From assembly GCA_950295325.1 (NCBI GenBank), contig OX485807.1, forward strand, positions 15,589,001-15,653,000: a stretch of DNA of 64,000 bases, in the 5' to 3' direction. Below the pieces are notes generated by a model that had not been told where the DNA came from, made no database searches, and saw only the letters and a program-made list of their open reading frames with translations. Source of the stretch: Polytrichum commune (lineage: Eukaryota; Streptophyta; Polytrichopsida; Polytrichales; Polytrichaceae). Numbering within the stretch: the first letter of the stretch is position 1; each line of letters starts with the position of its first letter. Positions 51,441-64,000 of the stretch are shown here, in pieces. The position numbers and the translations under genes were made by a program.

Positions 51441-52499
51441 AAAATTTCTTTGTTGTAAAGCAAACAAAATAGCTAGATTATTGATATTGAGTATTTTCCA
51501 TCCTCTATTATTGTATGCAACTCATGATTTTAGCCGCTCATAACAAATCACAATCATTCATTTATTTCTAATTCATTGTTGATATATATTTTTTGGTTCT
51601 AAATTCGTGTTGTGACTATCAAGGACATTGTTGCTAATTCTAATGTTGATAGAGTCTCACAACATTTGCATACAAAGCCCACCCGAGCGTTCTTGCTTTG
51701 GGGCAACATCTTCGTGACCACAAGATACCTCAAGGGAATGTTTCTACCTTCAATTCCAATCGTCATTGAGGCCTCAATGTATTTTAGTCTTGCCATCACT
51801 ACAAAAGCTATGGTGTGAGCCTAATATTGGGCCCGCATGTCAGCTTAATCATAAAAAACATTAAGACCTTAGAATTTGTGTTTGCTTGAGTAGTCAAAAA
51901 GATAAAAGGAGTGATGTGTTAAAGTCTAGGTGGAATTGAGTTAAGTGGTGAGTTAGGAGTTATGTAGGGCAAGAGGCCGAGAAAAATTAATTATGGATCA
52001 AGTTAGTTAGGTGGGAGCCTAGGGATGGTCTCACATGGGGTTAAACATAAAATAAATATGGGAGGGCGAGAAAGAGCGAGCGATAAAGTCAACCCCGCCT
52101 TAAAGGTGAGAAAGAAAAAGAAAAAGAGGTGAGAACAACTAAGAGAGTGGGGAGGTGGAGTTTTGAAGAGGAAAGCCAAGGGAGGAGGCCAAATCCCATT
52201 TTTCTTTTCGGGCAGCCCGAAAGATGCCGGGCAACGCGAGAAAAAAAGGAGTGGCTTGGAGGGGTCCCGAGAGGCAAGGAGGAGAAGGCTCATTATGCAT
52301 GGATGAGGCAAGAGGAGAGGGAAAGGGGCGAAGCGCTGCCTCGGCTTTGAGTTCTGGTTGCGGAGGGTGCACACACATGTTGATGCAAATAAAATGTGGA
52401 TCCGGTAGTGGCAGTGGGGTGATGATTAGGAAAGGAGGTTGCAATGAAGGGGGAAAGCGGGGAAAGTTACAGCATGAGCGTAGAGCGGTGAGCGTCATG

Positions 52500-54480
52500 T
52501 TTTCGTGAATTTCTCCGCTCGCTTTTCAAAATTTTATTGAAACATAAGGATCCTATTACCACTGAATTTGGTCCGGAGAAAACTATAAATGTATATTTTT
52601 AGGGAAAAGAGTACCCCAAATCCGTGGAAGGGGGTCCTACTGCAAATTTTTGTTATTATATATATAGTGAAATTAGGGCTGACGTCATCATTTATATGAA
52701 AGGGTGATTTAAATGAGGACCGTTCAAGGTTGAAATGAAATTGTGTTTTAATTAATTAACAAATTTATTTCAGTGTTTAAGGCTAAGGGCGTAATTAGGG
52801 CTGGCATCCTCGAAACAATAATTTAAATGGCAAAGTTTATACAATCCAACAAGTGAATATTCTTGTGCTTGTTAATCGGTCATGTAGGTAGGTCCCCTCA
52901 ATCTAGAATCTCAGTGGAGAGGGTAGTGCCGACAATTTTAGTAAAGAATATTGTTTGAGAGTATTAAACATTGTGTGGTTTATTGAGGAACATTATGCCT
53001 TTCTTCCAAATCTATCAAACACGTGTCTTCTTGGTGTCCATTCTTGGATACACACTTAACCAAAGACCATTTAAACATAATTATTTTCAATCAAGATAAG
53101 TAACCAAATTAGGTTTACTTACCTCATTCTTCAACTAAGTCATTGTCAAATTCTAGACGTTGATTTCCAAATAAGTTTTCCTTATTCTGATTTATGGATA
53201 ACTTATAAAGTAATATTGCTCTATCTTCTTATAGGTGGAATCTAGAGATGACCAGTCATGATCTTAAATTTTAAAAATGCCTAGCCAATGTTAAAATTCA
53301 ACTACGAGGCTTATGGTATTTACTACGCTATTTTGCCTAATTAGTGGGGGTTATTGTTTGCAGTTACGCATTGCTATAATATTTTACAGAGAGTATAATT
53401 TTTTACCCAAATGACACAAGTATTTAGTACGCACACTGAAGAATATGATGTAATCTAGTTAGTTAAAATATAATAATGTCGGTAAAAAGTTCTAGCAATA
53501 CGTAACCCCAAATGGTAACCCACACTAATAGGACAATTTGGTGGACCACCATCTTCCTTGGGCCGGGGAATAAAGAAAGAAAAGAAAAATAAATTCGGCA
53601 CTTTAAGTTGATGTGAACGAGGGCGGTTCACTAAGGGTTGGTTCAAAAGGGGTCCCAAGTCTTAGTTCACTTAAGGTCAATATGTGCAAACTTAGTTGTT
53701 GAAAGGATAAAAATTGGGATTTATTACTTCACGTGGGGTCCTAAGTCCTATGTCCCAACTTTGATGTGGATGCTTACATCACTACATGTTATTGGAGGTT
53801 AGGTTTGGAGGTTGCGTCGAGAGTTGGGTCGAGCAACCCATAAATCTAGGTCAATTTGCTAAGCCAATCATTTATACCGTTGATCTAAATCGGCTAAGCC
53901 CTCTCGAGTGTTGGTTTATACACCCTCTAAGGTAGAGACACCTATTCATGACAATTCAAGGGAATTGGTAACCTAGGAGTGCAAAGAGCATGGAGTGAAA
54001 ATATCAATGTGTTAGCAAATCCGAAAGGAAGGATTGGGCGTTGGAATATAAATTATTGGAGGCTTGAGCAATTTAACATAAATATTTGAAGCAAGGGTGT
54101 TGTAGACACCTATTCTAAGCCATAGACTTATTCAAAACAAACAAAGGAGCAATTGTGAAGCAACAAATATGATGGCGAGAAAAATTCATGTATGTATTAA
54201 AAATTGGGAGTTCCATCTAGTGACATCTCCCAAATGTCACTAGATATGACAAAGTTTTGTTAGATAGAATCAATTCAGTGTTCAAGTTAGAAGCGTGCAC
54301 ATGCATTTCAGTGCAAATGGCATAACTCAAACTTTCAAACTTCAACTTCTTTGAACTTCTTTGACAAGTCTACAATAGCTATGACACAAAGAAACTTGTA
54401 GATGTTTTATTTTAAAAAGAAATGGCCATTTCAAATGGCTACATTATGCACGTAACAAACCAGAAACAAACATATGGATA
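52500..54480. other. Gene-free stretch
   Basis: A purine-rich patch lies just before it (52030-52470). Within it I see only a fragment resembling the 41.5-kb repeat ('cacgtgtcttcttggtgt', 'cacacttaacca' at 53019-53065). The right end is the 3' flank of the ParB-methyltransferase gene. Confidence 0.5.
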
Positions 54481-54487
54481 GTCTTGA

Positions 54488-55968
54488 TCAAGGTGAACCA
54501 ACATCGAAACTCTCGTCACATTGATCAGCCTCAACATCCATGAATCTAAGCACTGTAGGGTTGAAAAATTGACGTGGAAAATCTGAAAGGATTGGAGATG
54601 GGGCGCGTATGAATTCTTGTGCTATACGTTCGGCATATGAAGGTAAGGCGAATGAAGTAGGAGGACTCATGTAGACATCACCGTGGCGGATCAAACGTCT
54701 TGCGAGACCTGCGTCACTAAATAATAAAACAAAGTCAGCATGACAAATTATATGAATACATTAAATATTTGAGAGACTTAAGACATGCAGTTAAGACGCA
54801 CCGCAATATTTGCGACCCTTCTTCTTCTTTGGCGCAATGTCTTCGTCGGAATCAGAGTCTGTGGTTGAATCCGCGCGCTCTTTTGGTTGCGGGATCGCAT
54901 CCATGTAAGGCTTGAGAAGCGCCTCAAAGATTTCTGAATCCGGCTCCAATGCGATGAGGTGTCGGTTCGAACGTTGGCAAGCAATGACAGAAGCACCTGC
55001 AGTTTGGAAAACGGAATTTAGAAAGTGGAATTCAGTTTCAGTTGTTGTAAACAATGAAGGGAGATATTGAAAACCTGTACTAGGGCTCCAGTCGCAGACG
55101 ATATCATGCTCGTCTGTAAGACACTCGATGAAGCACTGAACAAAGGATGGGTCCTTCTCACGCGAGCCACGCCAAGGAAGTCCAGTAGGGCGTAGAAGCT
55201 GGGACTCGGTTGTCGTGAAGTTCGTCAAGTCATCGCGCTCTTCGGGAAGGATCTCCATTTGTACGAACTGCGGTCGCAATCGGCGAGTACGGAACTTGGA
55301 ACTAAGGCGTGCAAAGACCTTAATGTTAAAGTTATGGGTCTGTAAGAAAACCTCAAGGATTAGAATATATTGAAACTGATTGTCGGATTGAGAAATTCAA
55401 ATTATGAACATAAAAGATAATACCTCTTTCTGGTGTGGAAGGGAGGAGGCCATGGGAATGGGATTATAGCCCCACCAATCCCGGACAATCGTAAAATCAT
55501 AGATTTTGATTTTACTATCTAACTTCTTCTCGATTCGACGGTCCTTGGGATGGAAGAGGAGAATAACTCCGTCATCGGTCAAGTGACAATCTGCAAAGGC
55601 GAAGAGTTGGTCAAAGTAGTCTGTCTCTCGCTTGTTCCACGACGGTACGGACATGGGAGAGATGACAGGCACGACCAAGTCTTCTGGAGCGTCAACAATC
55701 ACGAGATCAATTCCAGGATGCCTAGGCCGCATTTGCATCGATTTACAAGGATAAGTACGGCCGACCCCGATCTGTATGAATAAGAAAAAATGGAAAGCAT
55801 GAGTTACCGATAAAAAAAAACCTCGCTAGTCCAAGACAATTTTGAAATTGATAGAGTTAGTGAGAGTTGAGAGTTGAGAGTTGCGAGTTGCGAGTTGCGA
55901 GTTGAGTTGAGAGTTGAGAGTTGAGAGTTAAGAATTAAGAGTTGAGAGTTGAGTTGAGAGTTGAGAGG

Positions 55969-56014
<46 letters not shown>

Positions 56015-56029
56015 TTGAGAGTTGAGAGG

Positions 56030-56068
<39 letters not shown>

Positions 56069-56084
56069 TTGAGAGTTGAGAGTT

Positions 56085-56119
<35 letters not shown>

Positions 56120-56191
56120 ATTGAGAGTTGAGAGTTGAATTGAGAGTTGAGGGTTGAGAGTTGAGTTGAGAGTTGAGAGGTGAGAGTTGAA

Positions 56192-56225
<34 letters not shown>

Positions 56226-59200
56226 ATTGAGAGTTGAGAGTTGAGAGTTGAGTTGAGAGTTGAGAGGTGAGAGTTAAGAGTTGAGAGTTGAGTTGGGATT
56301 GTGTGACCTTGATAATGTGGTCTACAATACGGACAAGTTGCCGATCCATGAATTTCTGGTGTTCAGACTGGTTAAGCAAGGCACAGAAGTTTCTATGCTC
56401 AAGAAACATCGGCAGGGTCGTCTTAAATGGCGAAGACGAAATGACACCTACACCTTTCGGGGGTGGTACACCACGGCCAGAGAGTGTGACACGAAGATTT
56501 TGGCTAGATTGAACATCCAAGTTGGAACGTGGGGGTGATGGCGGATTAGAAACCGTGCGTTGCGAAGTCTGAGTCGAAGCCAAAGGAGCTCCTGCAGGAA
56601 TTTGAACACCTGCAGGTGAGGCTGCCACAACGGAACCGTCGCGAGAATGAACCTTCCCTCGACGTTGAACTTTTGGCTTCGGAACATGTTCAGGCTGAGT
56701 TGCCTCGTCGTCGTCGTCGTCGTTCAAGTCAGTGACCATAGGAGCCGCTCCTCCTGCAGATGGTTCCGGGACAGGGACGAGGTGTTTCTCCTCCTCAGGA
56801 ACGAAGTTCTGTGGGCACTCGAGGAACCAACCACCTGTGAGCAACACCTCATAGGGAAATCGATTGCGTTGGTCTTCGGTCCAAAGTCCATCAATAGGCG
56901 TTTGGGTAGACGGTTTGAGCTCGACATGAGCCGGAACTTCCCAAGCCGCAAGAGCACGTTTGGCGATGAGCTCTTGCTTCATGTACCTGCATATATGCGT
57001 TACATTTAGGAAGGGTGATAGAGACAAAGAGAACACTGAATCAAACAAGAAGCCAAATCATACAAACCTGTAAAACAAGCGGCCCGCCAAAATTCCACCT
57101 TCAATCTTAAGGAGCTCTAAACCTTTGAGAAACCTTGGGCTTGCATTTTCCGAGAGGTAGAAGGGGAAGGCCTTCTTCCACAATAGCGATCTCCATTTCT
57201 CCACGTATTCCGCCGGCTTGAGAACAACGGAGCTCCACTCAATGTTGATCTTAAGTTTAGCGACATAGTTGTCCATGTGGTCTTTAAGGAAAGTAGACAA
57301 CTGACATACATTATGAAACGATGGGTGTTAGAAGTAACGACAATTTCAACGGATTAAAAATGAAGAGCCTAGAGGAAGTAAGTATCGTCATACCTGAGCC
57401 CAAAGAGAAGCCCTTGGCAACCAGACGTCGAGGAATTTGTCCTTCATTGGACGATCTAGTGGAAATCGGTAGGCTGCCCGTTCCTCGTCCGTTCCGTTCC
57501 ACAATTGCAACCATTTCCCTTTGAAGTCAGGATGGACCTTGGTGGTTGCAATTTTATGAAGTCGCTCAACGGTCAAGTCCAATGATTTCCCGCTAGTATA
57601 GTGTTTATTGAGCTGCGTGGAAAATGGAGAGTTGAGGGTTGAGAGTTGAGTTGAGAGTTGAGTTGAAAGTTGAAAGTTGAGTTGAGAGTTGAGAATTGAG
57701 AATTGAGAATTGAGAATTGAATTGAGAGTTGAGAATTGAGAATTGAGAATTGAGAATTGAATTGAGAGTTCAGAGTTCAGAGTTCAGAATTGAGAATTGA
57801 GAATTGAGAATTGAGAATTGAGAATTGAGAATTGAGAATTGAGAATTGAATTGAGAGTTCAGAGTTCAGAGTTCAGAGTTCAGAATTGAGAGTTGAGAGT
57901 TGAGAATTGAGAATTGAGAGTTGAGAGTTGAGAATTGAGAATTGAGAGTTGAGAATTGAGAATTGAGAGTTGAGAACTGAGAATTGAGAGTTGAGAATTG
58001 AGAATTGAGAATTGAGAATTGAGAATTGAGAACTGAGAGTTGAGTTGATAGTTGATAGTTGAGAGGTGAGAGTTGAATTGAGAGTTGAGAGTTGAGAATT
58101 GAGAATTGAATTGAGAGTTGAGAATACCTCTTGTTCAAATAACTCTCCATTGGCTGGGTTGGCGATTGCAACCATCTTGTCGAACCTTTGGCTGCGCCAA
58201 TGCTTGACACACTTCGTGATGGCCTTGTCCATCGCACTCCAGACTCCAGGCCCAGTCCTCTCATTCTCGGGCACAGTCTCATAATAGTTCGAGCAAACAG
58301 CGTCGGATGCAACAACGCATTGTCTCTGTATGACAATAATTAAGATGTAAGAAACGCATGATGCACTTCATAATATGAAAACGATAAGCACATAACTTTA
58401 GAAAACTTACCGCGTGGAGGAATTTAACAAAAATGTCCATTGTGAGTGGATACCATGACGGTAGACGGGGTTTATAAGCCTCGCAAATAGCCATGTCCTC
58501 TTTGCTAATAAGACCTTTGAAATCAGAAAGTTTGAAGGAGCCGAAGGTTCGAATTCTTTGCAACTTGGCAATAGTACTGTCTTGAACATGATCATGTTCC
58601 GTCGACCTGTGAATGAAGATATGAGTATTAAAAAAAAGCTTCCATGGGTAAATGGAATATGAAATTAATGGAAATGGATTTGCAAGTATACTACCAGTTT
58701 ATGTCGTTCATGGCGTTGAGAAGCATTGAGCATTGCCCACGTGCGTCGAGAACAATACAGTCAACCGAAATGTACCAGTCATGATTATTGGAATGGTACT
58801 TGTGGCTGTAATCCATCCAAGCCGTCACGCGGTGATTACCTTCGTAGACATAAAAGTATTTGTTCCGAAACTGATGGAGATCAGGATCAGACGACAAGTA
58901 CTCTTCGAACTCATTATTAGCAGACTTCCATAGTGGGTTAGACCAGATGGCGTCATCCTCTCGAACCACTAGGTCCTTGTCCGTGATGTCGAAAGGAGAC
59001 ACATACAAAACTCGATCTCCTTCTCGATACCCTTTGACGAACTCGTTCGCCAACATCTCGACGTCGAAATCGACAATTGGACGCACCTTCGGGTAGGTCT
59101 TGAGACAGCAAAAAGAAATAAGGAATCGAGACTTCTTAATGGGTTTGGTGCGAAGATTGGAGATGACAGTATTGTAGTCACTCTTCTGCAGCAATCTCAT

Positions 59201-62200
59201 CTCATTTGTGCTCCACATGGGGTCCTTGTCCTGCAGATGAGGGGGCATGTGAACAATGCCAAGTTCAACACCACCAGGAGGACGTAAGGGATTTGACGAG
59301 CGTTTGTCGCTTGAATCGGGCGCTTCTTGGGTGGCCTCTTGTGTGGTATCGGCAGCATGTTGATCGGAGGATGGGACATCCTCCTCCAAGTCGGCAACAT
59401 CTAGGATTGAAGAATGTTGAGGGGGAATGCCACAATCCTCCTCCAAGGAATCTATCGAGGGAGGTGGGACTTGCTCGGGTACGGGAACATCGGATAATGT
59501 CATCTGGAAGGTAGGTAAATGAAACACAATACACTTAGGAAAAAAATATGAAGTACTATAAACGACGACTAGCTAAGTTATAGCAAGTAAACCTATGACT
59601 AAACGACGACTAGCTAAGACAATGTTGAAACCACTAAGCATCTCGGACAAGTAACTGTTGTACTCGGCTCCATGTACTCTCTGTGAAGAAACCTACAAAA
59701 AAAATGAATATGGATTAGAATAAATAGGCCATCATCACATGACAAAAAATACTCATATAACCTATAGCAGAAAGGACCCCTGGGGTCACCCAATTTCCTA
59801 AAGCAAACGGCAAAAAATCAAACTATATACCCTATCCTGCCTCTGAACCACAAGCTCATCATCGGCGCACAAATTCATCAAGGCAGAAAGGACCCCTGCG
59901 CCAACGCAGGGGTCACCCAATTTTCTAAAGCAAACTGCCGAAAATCAAATTATATACCCTATCTTGCCTCAGAGCCAGAAGCTCATCATCGGCGCACAAA
60001 TTCATCAAGGCAGAAAGGACCCCTGCGCCAACGCAGGGGTCACCCAATTTTCTAAAGCAAACTACCGAAAATCAAATTATATACCCTATCTTGCCTCAGA
60101 GCCAGAAGCTCATCATCGGCGCACAAATTCATCAAGGCAGAAATGACCCCTGCGCCAACGCAGGGGTCACCCATTTTCCTAAAGCAAACTGCCGAAAATC
60201 AAACTATATACCCTATCCTGCCTCTGAACCACAAGCTCATCATCGGCACACAAATTCATCAAGGCAAAAAGGACCCCTGCGCCAACGCAGGGGTCACCCA
60301 TTTTTCTAAAGCAAACTGCCGAAAATCAAATTATATACCCTATCTTGCCTCAGAGCCAGAAGCTCATCATCGGCGCACAAATTCATCAAGGCAGAAATGA
60401 CCCCTGCGCCAACGCAGGGGTCACCCATTTTCCTAAAGCAAACTGCCGAAAATCAAACTATATACCCTATCTTGCCTCTGAACCACAAGCTCATCATCGG
60501 CGCACAAATTCATCAAGGCAGAAAAGACCCCTGCGTCAACGCAGGGGTCACCCAATTTCCTAAAGCAAACTGCCAAAAATCAAATTATATACCCTATCCT
60601 GCCTCAGAGCCAGAAGCTCATCATCGGCGCACATATTCATCAAGGCAGAAAGGACCCCTGCGCCAACGCAGGGGTCACCCATTTTCCTAAAGCAAACTGC
60701 CGAAAAACAAACTATATACCCTAACCTGCCTCTGAACCACGAGCTTATCATCGGCGCACAAATTCATCAAGGCAGAAAAGACCCCTGCGCCAACGCAGGG
60801 GTCACCCAATTTCCTAAAGCAAACTGCCGAAAATCAAATTATATACCCTATCCTGCCTCAGAGCCAGAAGCTCATCATCGGCCCACAAATTCATAAAGGC
60901 AACAATGACCCCTGCGCCAACGCAGGGGTCACCCATTTTCCTAAAGCAAACTGCCAAAAATCAAACTATATACCCTATCCTGCCTCAGAGCCAGAAGCTC
61001 ATCATCGGCGCACAAATTCATCAAGGCAGAAAGGACCCCTGCGCCAACGCAGGGGTCACCCAATTTCCTAAAGCAAACTGCCGAAAATCAAATTATATAC
61101 CCTATCCTGCCTCAGAGCCAGAAGCTCATCATCGGCGCACAAATTCATCAAGGCAGAAAGGACCCCTGCGCCAACGCAGGGGTCACCCATTTTCCTAAAG
61201 CAAACTGCCGAAAATCAAACTATATACCCTATTCTGCCTCAGAGCCAGAAGCTCATCATCGGCGCACAAATTCATCAAGGCAGAGGGTATAGCAGAAAAA
61301 TGTACCGCAAAAACAAACCCTACTAGCCTCTGAGCCGCGAATGGTCTTCATCGGCACTTGACAACCACCAGGCAGATGGGTCTCACAAATTCAATCACAA
61401 CTTGGTTCAGAAGCATCGTGACAATCCGCCATCTCATTGCAACTATCAACAGATAATATTTTAGGGTTTTAAAATCACACTTACCTCACAATGCTCCCTT
61501 CACAATGGACCCATTGAAATAACTCGATGAAGATGAAGGACTTACGTTCTCCAAATCTTCGTCGACGTTTTCGGGGGTGCCCTCCAACCTTGTAACTGCA
61601 CATCCTCCTTCAGCTGCCATTTCCTAGTAACATATATTGCAAATTCAATTCAATCAAAGGCGGTCATTTGCAATAAGATCTGTTATGGAGACCTTCCCAA
61701 ACAATCCATCGCTACCCGACCTGCTCGGAGGGTCCCGCTCTGTCGGATCAGTCTACCAGGTGGGTTGGAGGTGTCTGCCCGAACTGCCGAGTGTTCCCAG
61801 TTATCCAGCCATTTTGACTCCCACGTTCATTAATTTTTTCGTTTATAATTGAATATCTGACTGCCAATATTGAGGGTCATGTAGATTGATTTTTTATTAA
61901 TGTGTCGTTTCATCGTCAAGTGCCACTTACTTATACTAAGACGTTATCAACACGTACATACAACAGGCAACAATCAGGTGACAAACAAATTTTAGAAACT
62001 AATTCCTAGATATTAAGTTCCTAGAACAAATTCCTAGAACAAACGTCTATGACATAAGTTTGTATGATATTATAGGCATCATAAGCCATAATTTATCTTT
62101 GTAACATCTACCCTTTGCCTCTGTTAGGTTCACCCCACGGGATCGCACGATAAGCAAGTAAGACTATGACTGAAGTTTACTACTCATTTTCAAGGTTTTA

Positions 62201-62606
62201 GGGTCTTGGAACTTACAACTTTATCGATCCCTTCTTCGTCACTGTCGTTTTCGAATCCCAAAGAATCACTCCTCGATGATGAGGGCCTTCTACATTCTTG
62301 CTCTTCAATTGCATTGTCCTTTTCCCCTCCATCGTCTTCTTTTTCACCATCAACATTTTCTACAACTGCATCCAAGTTCAACGGCCGCATCGTGATAGTC
62401 TTTCTGAACATTCCTGGCTCGTCCTCATCGTTCTTATCTTCTTCATCTACTATTCGATCGTCTTCGCAAGAACCCGGGGCATCCCTCTTCCGCAACACGT
62501 TCCGTCGCAAAGCCTTGGCCCCACTGAATTTTATACCACCTCTCTTCTTCTTCCTCCCCCGCCCTACCTCATTCACTTTGTCTGTTTTACTACTCGTAGC
62601 CTCCAT
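54488..62606 (-). CDS. ParB/sulfiredoxin-like domain fused to degenerate beta-class DNA methyltransferase-like domain; uncharacterised
   Basis: Twelve exons join in phase at every GT-AG junction: 62217-62606, 61546-61623, 58695-59503, 58411-58606, 58128-58325, 57394-57612, 57068-57300, 56308-56986, 55424-55771, 55075-55339, 54802-54996 and 54488-54708. The product has 1276 residues. Residues 1-130 are basic then acidic (GRGRKKKRGGIKFSG; probable nuclear signal). Residues ~270-425 contain PKVRPIVDFDVEMLANEFVK and YVYEGNHRVTAWM (~377), like the ParB/Srx active-site loop. Residues ~430-930 are unrecognised, with a Pro/Asp-rich linker. From ~950, GIDLVIVDAPEDL takes the place of motif IV (DPPY). 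GVILLFHPKD follows, and near the C-terminus VCDWSPSTGASVIACQRSNR then HLIALEPDSEIF resembles the motif I region (DPFxGSG...GIExd). This permuted order is that of beta-class N4/N6 methyltransferases. DAPE lacks the second proline and aromatic residue, so activity is doubtful. Exons 1-2 might belong to a separate transcript. Confidence 0.8.
55857..56297 (-). repeat. Heptanucleotide minisatellite filling intron 8 of the ParB-methyltransferase gene
   Basis: The unit is CTCTCAA on the coding strand (TTGAGAG on plus), about 60 copies with occasional dropped bases. The coding strand contains no stop for ~150 codons. If the intron were retained, it would encode a heptad of Asn, Ser, Gln, Leu, Ser, Thr, Leu type. 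The frame ends at 55804, before the acceptor at 55772. Confidence 0.93.
57632..58122 (-). repeat. Related heptanucleotide minisatellite filling intron 5
   Basis: A mixture of CTCTCAA and CTCAATT heptamers on the coding strand starts almost at the donor (58127) and ends just before the acceptor (57613). Local sub-arrays include a run of pure CAATTCT units at 57790-57850. It is clearly the same family as the array in intron 8 but with its own sequence variants. Confidence 0.93.
59763..61286 (+). repeat. ~127-bp satellite array (about 12 units) in intron 2
   Basis: Units start near 59774, 59889, 60017, 60144, 60271, 60398, 60525, 60652, 60779, 60906, 61033 and 61160. Eleven carry GACCCCTGCGCCAACGCAGG GGTC (shown split), a 10-bp perfect stem with a 4-nt loop. 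One of these has loop variant GTCAA (near 60535). The first unit has lost the centre. Two subtypes differ at linked sites (attatat with cagagccaga versus actatat with ctgaaccaca) and often alternate, giving a ~254-bp higher-order period. Plus-strand frames through the array are open by chance and are not genes. Confidence 0.95.
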
Positions 62607-63221
62607 GGTTGGATACTTCGATCAATGAACACAAATTTGTAAAACAACAATAACACCCTAACCCAACTACAACACAACTTGTATTTGAATGACCTAGTCC
62701 TCCGAATCCCTTTCCTTTATATTTAATTTCTAGCAAGCTATGTCATCGAGTTATAATCCCGCGTTTAATAAAAACGCGGAATCCGAGATTAGATATCTTA
62801 CAACACTGACATCAATTACTAATCTCTTTCGAATTTGTCAATATATTTACGCATCTCCCCTGACAATGTCGGCCTCCAGAAATTTTTGAATTGTCATGTT
62901 TTTCCATTTAAGGTACAGACACCTTTAGGGTTTAACTTCAGCATTTCGGCATAGCATATATTGGGTTATTTTTGGGTGCGTATAAAAATTAATCTATACC
63001 GACATGTATCATATTTGGTGGTCAGGAAGTAATGACTATTACTGGAGTTCATTCTAATCCTACATGAAACATGTTGTCCAGAATTTACATGAATAAATAT
63101 TGACTATTAATTGATCTAATAAGTTGTCAATTATTCGGGTATTGTTGTCTACCCAAATTGTATATAATACCCGATTATTGCTACATTTTTCCTTCATGTC
63201 ATCTCATCAATATCTTCTCCA
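62607..63221. promoter_or_regulatory. Divergent intergenic promoter region
   Basis: On the minus strand TATAAA (plus 62716-62721) lies ~110 bp upstream of the ParB-methyltransferase ATG. On the plus strand TATATAA (63161-63167) lies ~57 bp upstream of the next ATG. The 615-bp space between divergent starts may be a shared control region. Confidence 0.45.
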
Positions 63222-63659
63222 ATGGGTACTGACTCACGTCTCCTAAGCCTTGCTCCATTAGGTGCTTCTAGTTCATCTCAAATTCACACAACGTTGTCCA
63301 TCGATGGTTCTGCAGACGTCAAGAACATGAAGAATGCCAACCCACCTGACTGCTCAGTTACTCCTGCGGTCGTGGTTCCCACTCCTCAACCACAGACTCC
63401 ATCTTTGCAGGCAGTTGATGCATCACTGATACAGAACAAGTCTACTTTCAAGATTCATCCCTATTCTAGAGCAGGGGTTATTAAACCTGGCATTTACTCT
63501 AGATCCATATTGAGGAGTGCCAAAGGTCAGAAACTCGATTGCGCAGGATGCACTGCAGTTCGTAGTTTAGGGATTGATCATTGTCATAAACATGACAATG
63601 ACAAATATGGCAAAGGGCCCCATATGGCAAAGGCCCCATTTTTGTCTCCCACTCCATGA
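63222..63659 (+). CDS. Hypothetical protein, 145 residues
   Basis: An open frame runs from MGTDSRLLSLAPLG to a TGA, preceded at suitable distance by a TATA box. The first half is Ser/Pro-rich and disordered (PTPQPQTPSLQ). The second half has a compact Cys/His cluster (LDCAGCTAVRSLGIDHCHKH) that could bind a metal. I do not recognise the family. It is divergent from the ParB-methyltransferase gene, which hints at, but does not prove, a linked function. Confidence 0.5.
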   Translation: MGTDSRLLSLAPLGASSSSQIHTTLSIDGSADVKNMKNANPPDCSVTPAVVVPTPQPQTPSLQAVDASLIQNKSTFKIHPYSRAGVIKPGIYSRSILRSAKGQKLDCAGCTAVRSLGIDHCHKHDNDKYGKGPHMAKAPFLSPTP

Positions 63660-63852
63660 TGTATTGTTCACACTACTGTTTATACAGATTATTAATATTT
63701 CTCATGATTAACCAAACATTTTCTGACTACATTCTGTACATGTTTTGGATGTCCAACGTCTTCATCAACCTCTCATGTATATATCCCATTGTTTCTTTTC
63801 GATCCCCCTTTTGCAAATTCCTTCTCACATAGCATTGTCAAATTGTTTCTCA

Positions 63853-64000
63853 ATGTCTTCCGCTGCTGTCCAAGCTCCACTCGTCGATGTTATCGAACTT
63901 GTTTCTCTTGGATCTCTTATCCCTACATGCATACCTCCTGGCCCTGATGGAACCGCTGATCTCACTCCCCAGTGGCTATCCATTCGTTTTGGTTTCGATG
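63853..64000 (+). CDS. Hypothetical protein, 5' part, cut by window end
   Basis: ATG at 63853 (MSSAAVQAPLVDVIELVSLG...) remains open to the window end, 49 residues. A TATATA motif near 63778 lies ~75 bp upstream, the same layout as the previous gene, which suggests a small cluster of similar transcription units. Family unknown. Confidence 0.45.
   Translation, partial: MSSAAVQAPLVDVIELVSLGSLIPTCIPPGPDGTADLTPQWLSIRFGFD

Follow-up and report, generated by a model that had tools for sequence, protein, structure and literature searches.

A Mutator-like transposon of the moss Polytrichum commune carries an intron-rich accessory gene with a degenerate methyltransferase-like domain

The window analyzed here, a stretch of 64,000 nucleotides of the Polytrichum commune genome (contig OX485807.1, positions 15,589,001 to 15,653,000 of the forward strand), contains an intron-rich gene within a large DNA transposon; all coordinates below are window positions, and the gene is read on the minus strand from 62606 to 54488. 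Rebuilt from the window sequence, it consists of 12 minus-strand exons, all bounded by GT donors and AG acceptors and consistent in phase, which join into a coding sequence of 3831 nt, that is, 1276 codons followed by a stop at 54488. An initial annotation, made from the letters of the window, had proposed this same in-phase chain, and its coordinates proved right; the motifs it had named are present as well, EGNHRVTAW near residue 377, with exon 9 encoding IVDAPEDL, exons 10 and 11 together VCDWSPSTG, and exon 11 ALEPDSEIF. In ten related copies of the gene (c2–c11), the acceptors are AG at 83 of 85 testable homologous places and the donors GT at all 81. Because the splice sites are conserved in these ten copies, the gene model is supported, and because, in addition, the ratio of nonsynonymous to synonymous divergence (dN/dS) of the whole gene is 0.33–0.38 against the seven copies of a sister group (c4–c10), the exon chain does not appear to be a product of chance. 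On these comparisons, we regard the twelve exons as confirmed to form one real spliced gene.

The window's transposon and its copies share the same termini, GGGCGTTGCTAGGGCATGAGC... and ...CATGCTGTAACTTTCCCC, beyond which their homology ceases, and each element end has a core, GCATGAGCGTAGAG, that is short and imperfectly inverted. The window copy measures 13,926 bp and is flanked by the 10-bp duplication GCTTTCCCCC. Both ends are present in nine copies including the window's, and a perfect 10-bp duplication flanks seven of the nine, the window copy among them; the duplication of copy c2 is imperfect (7 of 10 positions), c7 is without one, and c5 and c10 are without one or both element ends. 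Target-site duplications of Mutator-like elements (MULEs) range from 8 to 11 bp according to passages of a survey (PMC6446971), which also mention MULEs without terminal inverted repeats, and the 10-bp duplication of the present element falls in that range. The family is large. In the same assembly (408 Mb in 64 contigs, seven of which make up ~406 Mb), a first look gave 1183 candidates for the exon-3 open frame (293 aa), of which 138 are scored matches, and 1026 for exon 9, of which 150 are scored; here, as for the transposase core discussed below, first-look candidates beyond the scored matches are unconfirmed. Besides the window's own copy, 15 copies are close (at least 80% identity), and 10 of these 15 were read whole with ~10 kb on each side.

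We consider the gene almost certain to be the accessory, that is, second, gene of this transposon. The initial annotation had instead taken it for an old capture that is now a nuclear gene, coding for a regulator not yet described. The window copy does have an intact open frame, as a domesticated, single-copy host regulator would; against this stand the many copies, the element termini and target-site duplication at the window copy itself, and the small divergence from its nearest copies, with dN/dS of 0.49–0.87 (c2, c3 and c11), so that we give domestication practically no weight. A single-copy host gene as such was rejected on the copy number together with the element ends and their target-site duplication. 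Intact, intron-rich transposon genes of this kind can be mistaken for host genes.

Upstream of the accessory gene and divergent from it lies another gene, which has a 756-aa open frame in c4 and other copies. It looks like a transposase of Mutator-like type: by eye, its residues follow the order D...D...C-x2-H known from Mutator-like transposases, and one more exon in c4 and c8 shows a SWIM-like CxC...CxH. In the window copy this gene carries an in-frame stop just beyond the window end and a later frame break, and lacks ~1.7 kb relative to c4. Weighing against the assignment, neither the MULE transposase domain PF10551 nor any other Pfam family is matched beyond chance by the transposase frames of c4 and of a distant relative, L030. 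Because PF10551 is not matched by these frames and the motifs were recognized by eye only, we call the element Mutator-like and do not file it as a MULE member. Elsewhere in the genome PF10551 is matched at 150 places listed at E ≤ 0.01 (best E 8.7e-23); such ordinary MULE transposases are common and, by eye, are not paired with exon-3 places, though one of them (C6:24752392) has a transposase-core match ~3.5 kb away on its own strand.

The association of the two genes extends over the family. A transposase-core query gave 1679 candidates, of which the best 150 were scored, none of them below 75% identity. At 73 of 134 exon-3 places such a match lies no more than 15 kb upstream and on the other strand (median distance 8.3 kb), whereas the other three gene arrangements together account for only 2 pairs. 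The count took 134 of the 138 exon-3 matches, four partial rows having been dropped beforehand, and 73 is a lower bound, as the core matches are the best 150 only. The pair is also present in two of three distant relatives read, L030 and L031 (58% and 35% transposase identity), while no transposase match was found within the stretch read around the third, L032. These observations bear on whether the accessory gene might be a mere passenger, captured in the manner of Pack-MULEs and without a role for the element. Mutator-like elements do acquire host gene fragments and extra open reading frames, as passages of PMC6446971 describe, but the retention of the pair in two of three distant relatives and a dN/dS of about 0.35 make such a passenger very improbable.

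Table 1. Features of the transposon and its genes in window coordinates.
Feature	Position	Strand	Description
Transposon	52459..64000 in window; whole element 52459 to 66384, beyond window end		Homology to copies stops at shared termini
Target-site duplication, 10 bp	52449..52458		At the element's gene-3' end; repeated identically at the opposite end, beyond the window
Exon 12	54488..54708	-	Contains stop codon
Exon 11	54802..54996	-	Motif I end, ALEPDSEIF (motif II-like), basic tail
Exon 10	55075..55339	-	PWRGSREK...DIVCDWSPST (motif I)
Exon 9	55424..55771	-	Methyltransferase-like domain, degenerate motif IV (IVDAPEDL)
Intron 8	55772..56307	-	7-bp minisatellite, 55861-56292
Exon 8	56308..56986	-	Unrecognized region, low-complexity in part
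Exon 7	57068..57300	-	Splice borders and phase
Exon 6	57394..57612	-	Splice borders and phase
Intron 5	57613..58127	-	7-bp minisatellite, 57627-58123
Exon 5	58128..58325	-	Splice borders and phase
Exon 4	58411..58606	-	Splice borders and phase
Exon 3	58695..59503	-	Putative ParB/Srx-like domain with EGNHRVTAW
Intron 2	59504..61545	-	Carries 127-bp x 11.8 tandem array at 59782-61284
Exon 2	61546..61623	-	Among the ten copies searched, only c2 and c11 have a match
Exon 1	62217..62606	-	Start codon at 62606; acidic/basic low-complexity N-terminus
Divergent transposase-like gene, 5' part	63222..64000	+	Broken in window copy

Profile comparisons identify the C-terminal domain of the accessory protein as beta-class DNA-methyltransferase-like by ancestry. 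The permuted methyltransferase-like C-terminus suggested by the initial annotation is thereby borne out by matches in Pfam, PDB and PHROG. Searches used an alignment of nine rows over exons 9–11, at 37–42% identity to the window row, which excluded L032 and L033 (stops), L040 (a near copy with doubtful splicing), L044 (doubtful splicing), and L036 and L042 (exon 10 not found by search). With it, the METHYLTRANSFERASE domain matches DpnA (E 2e-6) and CcrM (E 0.0042) in PDB. The Pfam family N6_N4_Mtase (PF01555) is matched by five of the nine members with a best E of 3.9e-9, the window member reaching an E of 0.11 only; PHROG methyltransferase families are matched by up to eight of the nine (best E 9.1e-13, window member 1.8e-4), and hhalign against three bacterial or phage methyltransferases gave an E of 5.6e-8. 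The middle region of the protein gave chance matches only in the PDB search. As for the source of the domain, a tblastn search of phages with the L034 methyltransferase part as query returned 795 records at E ≤ 1 with a best E of 4e-6, and among the 25 of these 795 that were listed no match covered 80% of the query; we read these matches as a distant family resemblance. Short-pattern scans of viral contigs and genome contigs, which reach recognizable relatives only, found no relative of either domain of the protein. A recent transfer from a virus or a bacterium was rejected, within the reach of these short-pattern scans, on their empty outcome and the distance of the phage matches.

The canonical catalytic motif IV of N4/N6 DNA methyltransferases is [DNS]PP[YFW]. 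In all nine aligned rows of the moss family it reads D[AVI]P[ED], without the first P and without the aromatic residue, and other members read have DVPE (L032, L036), DIPE (L033, L040, L055), DLPE (L042, L054) or DISE (L044). With D-x-P-[ED] in each of the nine rows where [DNS]PP[YFW] would be expected, the domain is probably inactive, and we judge it very likely to be mostly non-catalytic; the simplest reading is an enzyme that is dead or altered and yet maintained by selection. A precedent for such a fate is METTL14, in which a methyltransferase fold with a degenerate catalytic tetrapeptide is kept for a non-catalytic role, although METTL14 belongs to another methyltransferase family than the transposon protein. 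Could the enzyme nevertheless be active, binding its own element and depositing N6-methyladenine or N4-methylcytosine there? Its homology to N4/N6 enzymes is clear, motif I is partly kept as D....[TV]G, the acidic residue of motif II is present in seven of the eight rows reaching that motif, and motif IV is DIPY in L053, a relative without introns, which weighs against our reading in that parts of the family may have escaped the loss of activity. Methylation is also what the authors of PMC12477816, in the passages concerned, propose for algal proteins of related architecture. Set against the same motif IV defect in all nine rows and in every other member read except L053, these points leave an active enzyme improbable. 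L053 (G000:C1:9661900-9662950; motif IV DIPYGM) and G000:C4:44111719-44112387 are intronless relatives of the methyltransferase part with 577-aa open frames; nowhere else on the seven long contigs is the cut-off of Pfam N6_N4_Mtase exceeded.

The domain encoded by exon 3 is less readily placed. Its alignment has nine rows, eight of them at 46–51% identity to the window row; L030 and L049 were excluded (stops or near copies), as was L031, which nearly duplicates L032, and for L045 and L048 the aligned row starts only after a stop in the match. GNHR is kept in all nine rows and fits the GxxR P-motif (Box II), a feature of the ParB-CTPase fold as described in part of PMC12704722, though so short a motif is weak evidence alone. 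The initial annotation had called the domain ParB/Srx-like; the motif agrees, but neither profiles nor structure prediction gave confirmation, and the following points weigh against the assignment. The PDB search with the GNHR alignment returned no match, and NCBIfam only an unrelated family (E 0.017). DUF6551, which the same source ties to ParB-CTPase folds (PMC12704722, in part), appears in one of nine rows at E 0.014, beside unrelated Pfam families at 0.019–0.057, and phrog_1033 appears in one row at E 0.13, no stronger than unrelated matches. Comparison by hhalign with five phage or bacterial ParB domains was negative (probability 0.15), an AlphaFold model from the single sequence was unusable (predicted local distance difference test score, pLDDT, 32), and ParB_N (PF02195) is found in the genome only on the small contigs C10, C12 and C23. 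PF20188 was not found in the genome, where the controls were equally silent. We regard a ParB/Srx type as plausible for the GNHR domain, and the ParB-like label serves as a lead, for which only the architecture published for ParB-methyltransferase proteins gives added strength. The three small contigs carry typical bacterial- or phage-like ParB or methyltransferase frames, among them L056 (C12:28950-30400) with ParB and a DPPY methyltransferase, and are perhaps contamination of the assembly.

The accessory gene is under purifying selection, the methyltransferase domain included, as judged from the whole-gene comparison with the sister group given above and from a dN/dS of 0.19–0.28 for the methyltransferase exons against c4 and c6–c10. 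The higher whole-gene values against the nearest copies c2, c3 and c11, which rest on few differences, weigh against this. One may ask which function is selected for. The protein might be a transposition partner, as mudrB is, serving integration, excision or transposase assembly rather than epigenetic escape. The transposase linkage in 73 of 134 places and the purifying selection accord with this, as they would with any function for the element, and nothing in particular speaks against it, but both the intronic arrays and the methyltransferase ancestry would be left unexplained; we hold such a role to be unlikely, if less so than that of an active enzyme.

The arrays differ between groups of copies. 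Between exons 1 and 3, c1, c2, c3 and c11 have an array of a 127-bp unit, and c4, c6, c7 and c9 an array of a different unit of 167–169 bp, with no cross-match between the two. Among the distant relatives, L030 and L031 have arrays of their own, which lie upstream of exon 3 and also at other places, and L032 has arrays between exons 4 and 5 and beyond the gene. Synonymous divergence (dS) of the window gene from c4 and c6–c10 is 0.20–0.24 in exon 3 (up to 0.39 in c10), compared with 0.07–0.15 in exon 1, 0.06–0.18 in exons 4–7 and 0.02–0.13 in exons 8–11. The array and the adjoining GNHR exon are thus the parts that differ most between the groups, through exchange or through faster change, and it looks as if the array and the putative recognition domain had changed together. 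Several observations weigh against making much of this: c2, c4 and c11 have only two or three array units, in c8 no array between exons 1 and 3 exceeds the reporting threshold, exon 12 also has a raised between-group dS (0.13–0.18), and the dS pattern could be plain recombination between subfamilies. Variation of silent-site divergence along the gene with a peak in exon 3 is as expected from such recombination.

Proteins of this kind are already in print. Passages of PMC12477816 describe an accessory protein of 1104 aa with ParB-like and N4/N6 methyltransferase domains in the Ectocarpus element Sola1-1_Ec32, and cite similar ones for green and red algae, so the suggestion of the initial annotation that such a protein had not yet been described did not stand. 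In those published descriptions, by which we make the comparison, the algal proteins resemble the moss protein in being large, in joining an N4/N6 methyltransferase domain to a ParB-like one, which is putative in the moss, and in being encoded on the strand opposite the transposase of a large DNA transposon (PMC12477816), an arrangement found here in 73 of 134 places. The algal backbone, however, is Sola, whereas the moss element has a Mutator-like transposase and 10-bp duplications, and the moss gene differs in its lost motif IV, its 12 exons, its intronic arrays and its plant-type host. A second parallel is VANDAL of Arabidopsis, also a Mutator-like element with an accessory gene, VANC, and fast-evolving intronic tandem repeats; VANC binds short motifs lying in tandem repeats, among others in the VANC and VANB introns (PMC5735166, in the passages concerned). 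As an anti-silencing protein, VANC causes loss of methylation. It has DUF1985/DUF287 and not methyltransferase or ParB domains, and DUF1985 is not among the Pfam matches of the full window protein at E ≤ 10; the parallel of the intronic arrays is suggestive only.

Fusions of ParB with N6_N4 methyltransferases are more frequent in phages, according to part of PMC12704722. The phage or bacterial fusions compared here (L056, L057 and L058) likewise have a ParB-like domain followed by a permuted methyltransferase, but their motif IV is DPPY (L056, L057) or DFPY (L058), and their homology to the moss protein is confirmed for the methyltransferase part only. Virus-borne Mariner elements carry other methyltransferases (PMC3627910, in part), and a word search of the main text of the MULE survey (PMC6446971) found neither methyltransferase nor ParB. 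In the open-access literature searched, mostly at listing level, we recognized no plant or Mutator-like case of a ParB-methyltransferase accessory gene. As far as seen, therefore, what is new is the plant-type host, the Mutator-like backbone, the degenerate catalytic motif under selection and the fast-changing intronic arrays.

Let us then consider what the protein might do. In the scenario we favor, a large Mutator-like DNA transposon carries, divergently from its transposase gene, an accessory gene for a protein with a conserved GNHR domain, probably of the ParB/Srx type, a long middle and a C-terminal beta-class methyltransferase domain, the latter derived from a phage- or bacterial-type enzyme that has lost its catalytic tetrapeptide. 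The protein would act as a DNA-binding, non-catalytic factor recognizing its own element, with the tandem arrays in the element's introns as the likeliest target, and might help the element against host silencing or regulate transposition, as VANC does for VANDAL. As a whole, an accessory gene coding for a dead methyltransferase turned self-recognition or anti-silencing factor is the best explanation we can offer, at a probability of roughly 0.6. The VANC-like role taken by itself is more tentative and would fall somewhat short of even odds. A bolder version, in which a phage-type ParB-methyltransferase became a dead, sequence-specific anti-silencing protein aimed at its own intronic arrays, with arrays and recognition domain changing together in an arms race independent of VANC and VANDAL, appears doubtful, about on a par with the transposition partner discussed earlier. 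It has been proposed that transposon-borne DNA methyltransferases mark their own DNA. That a many-copy family keeps such a domain under selection after its catalytic motif was lost points to a binding role, and the finding extends such transposon-borne proteins to a plant-type genome, a setting in which it is still being asked how transposons counter silencing.

Lastly, apart from the transposon, a search for chlorophyll a/b-binding proteins gave 22 matches in the genome at E ≤ 1e-30. Two of them were compared with PDB chains: among chains of a single domain, one is closest to 8htu and 7xqp and the other to chain 9 of 7xqp/8htu, while for both the multi-domain chain 9vfj has a higher summed score. 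The structures 8htu and 7xqp are Physcomitrium patens complexes, in which chain 9 is Lhcb9. Fourteen chlorophyll a/b-binding gene matches of equal score lie within 95 kb at G000:C5:1751760-1846160.

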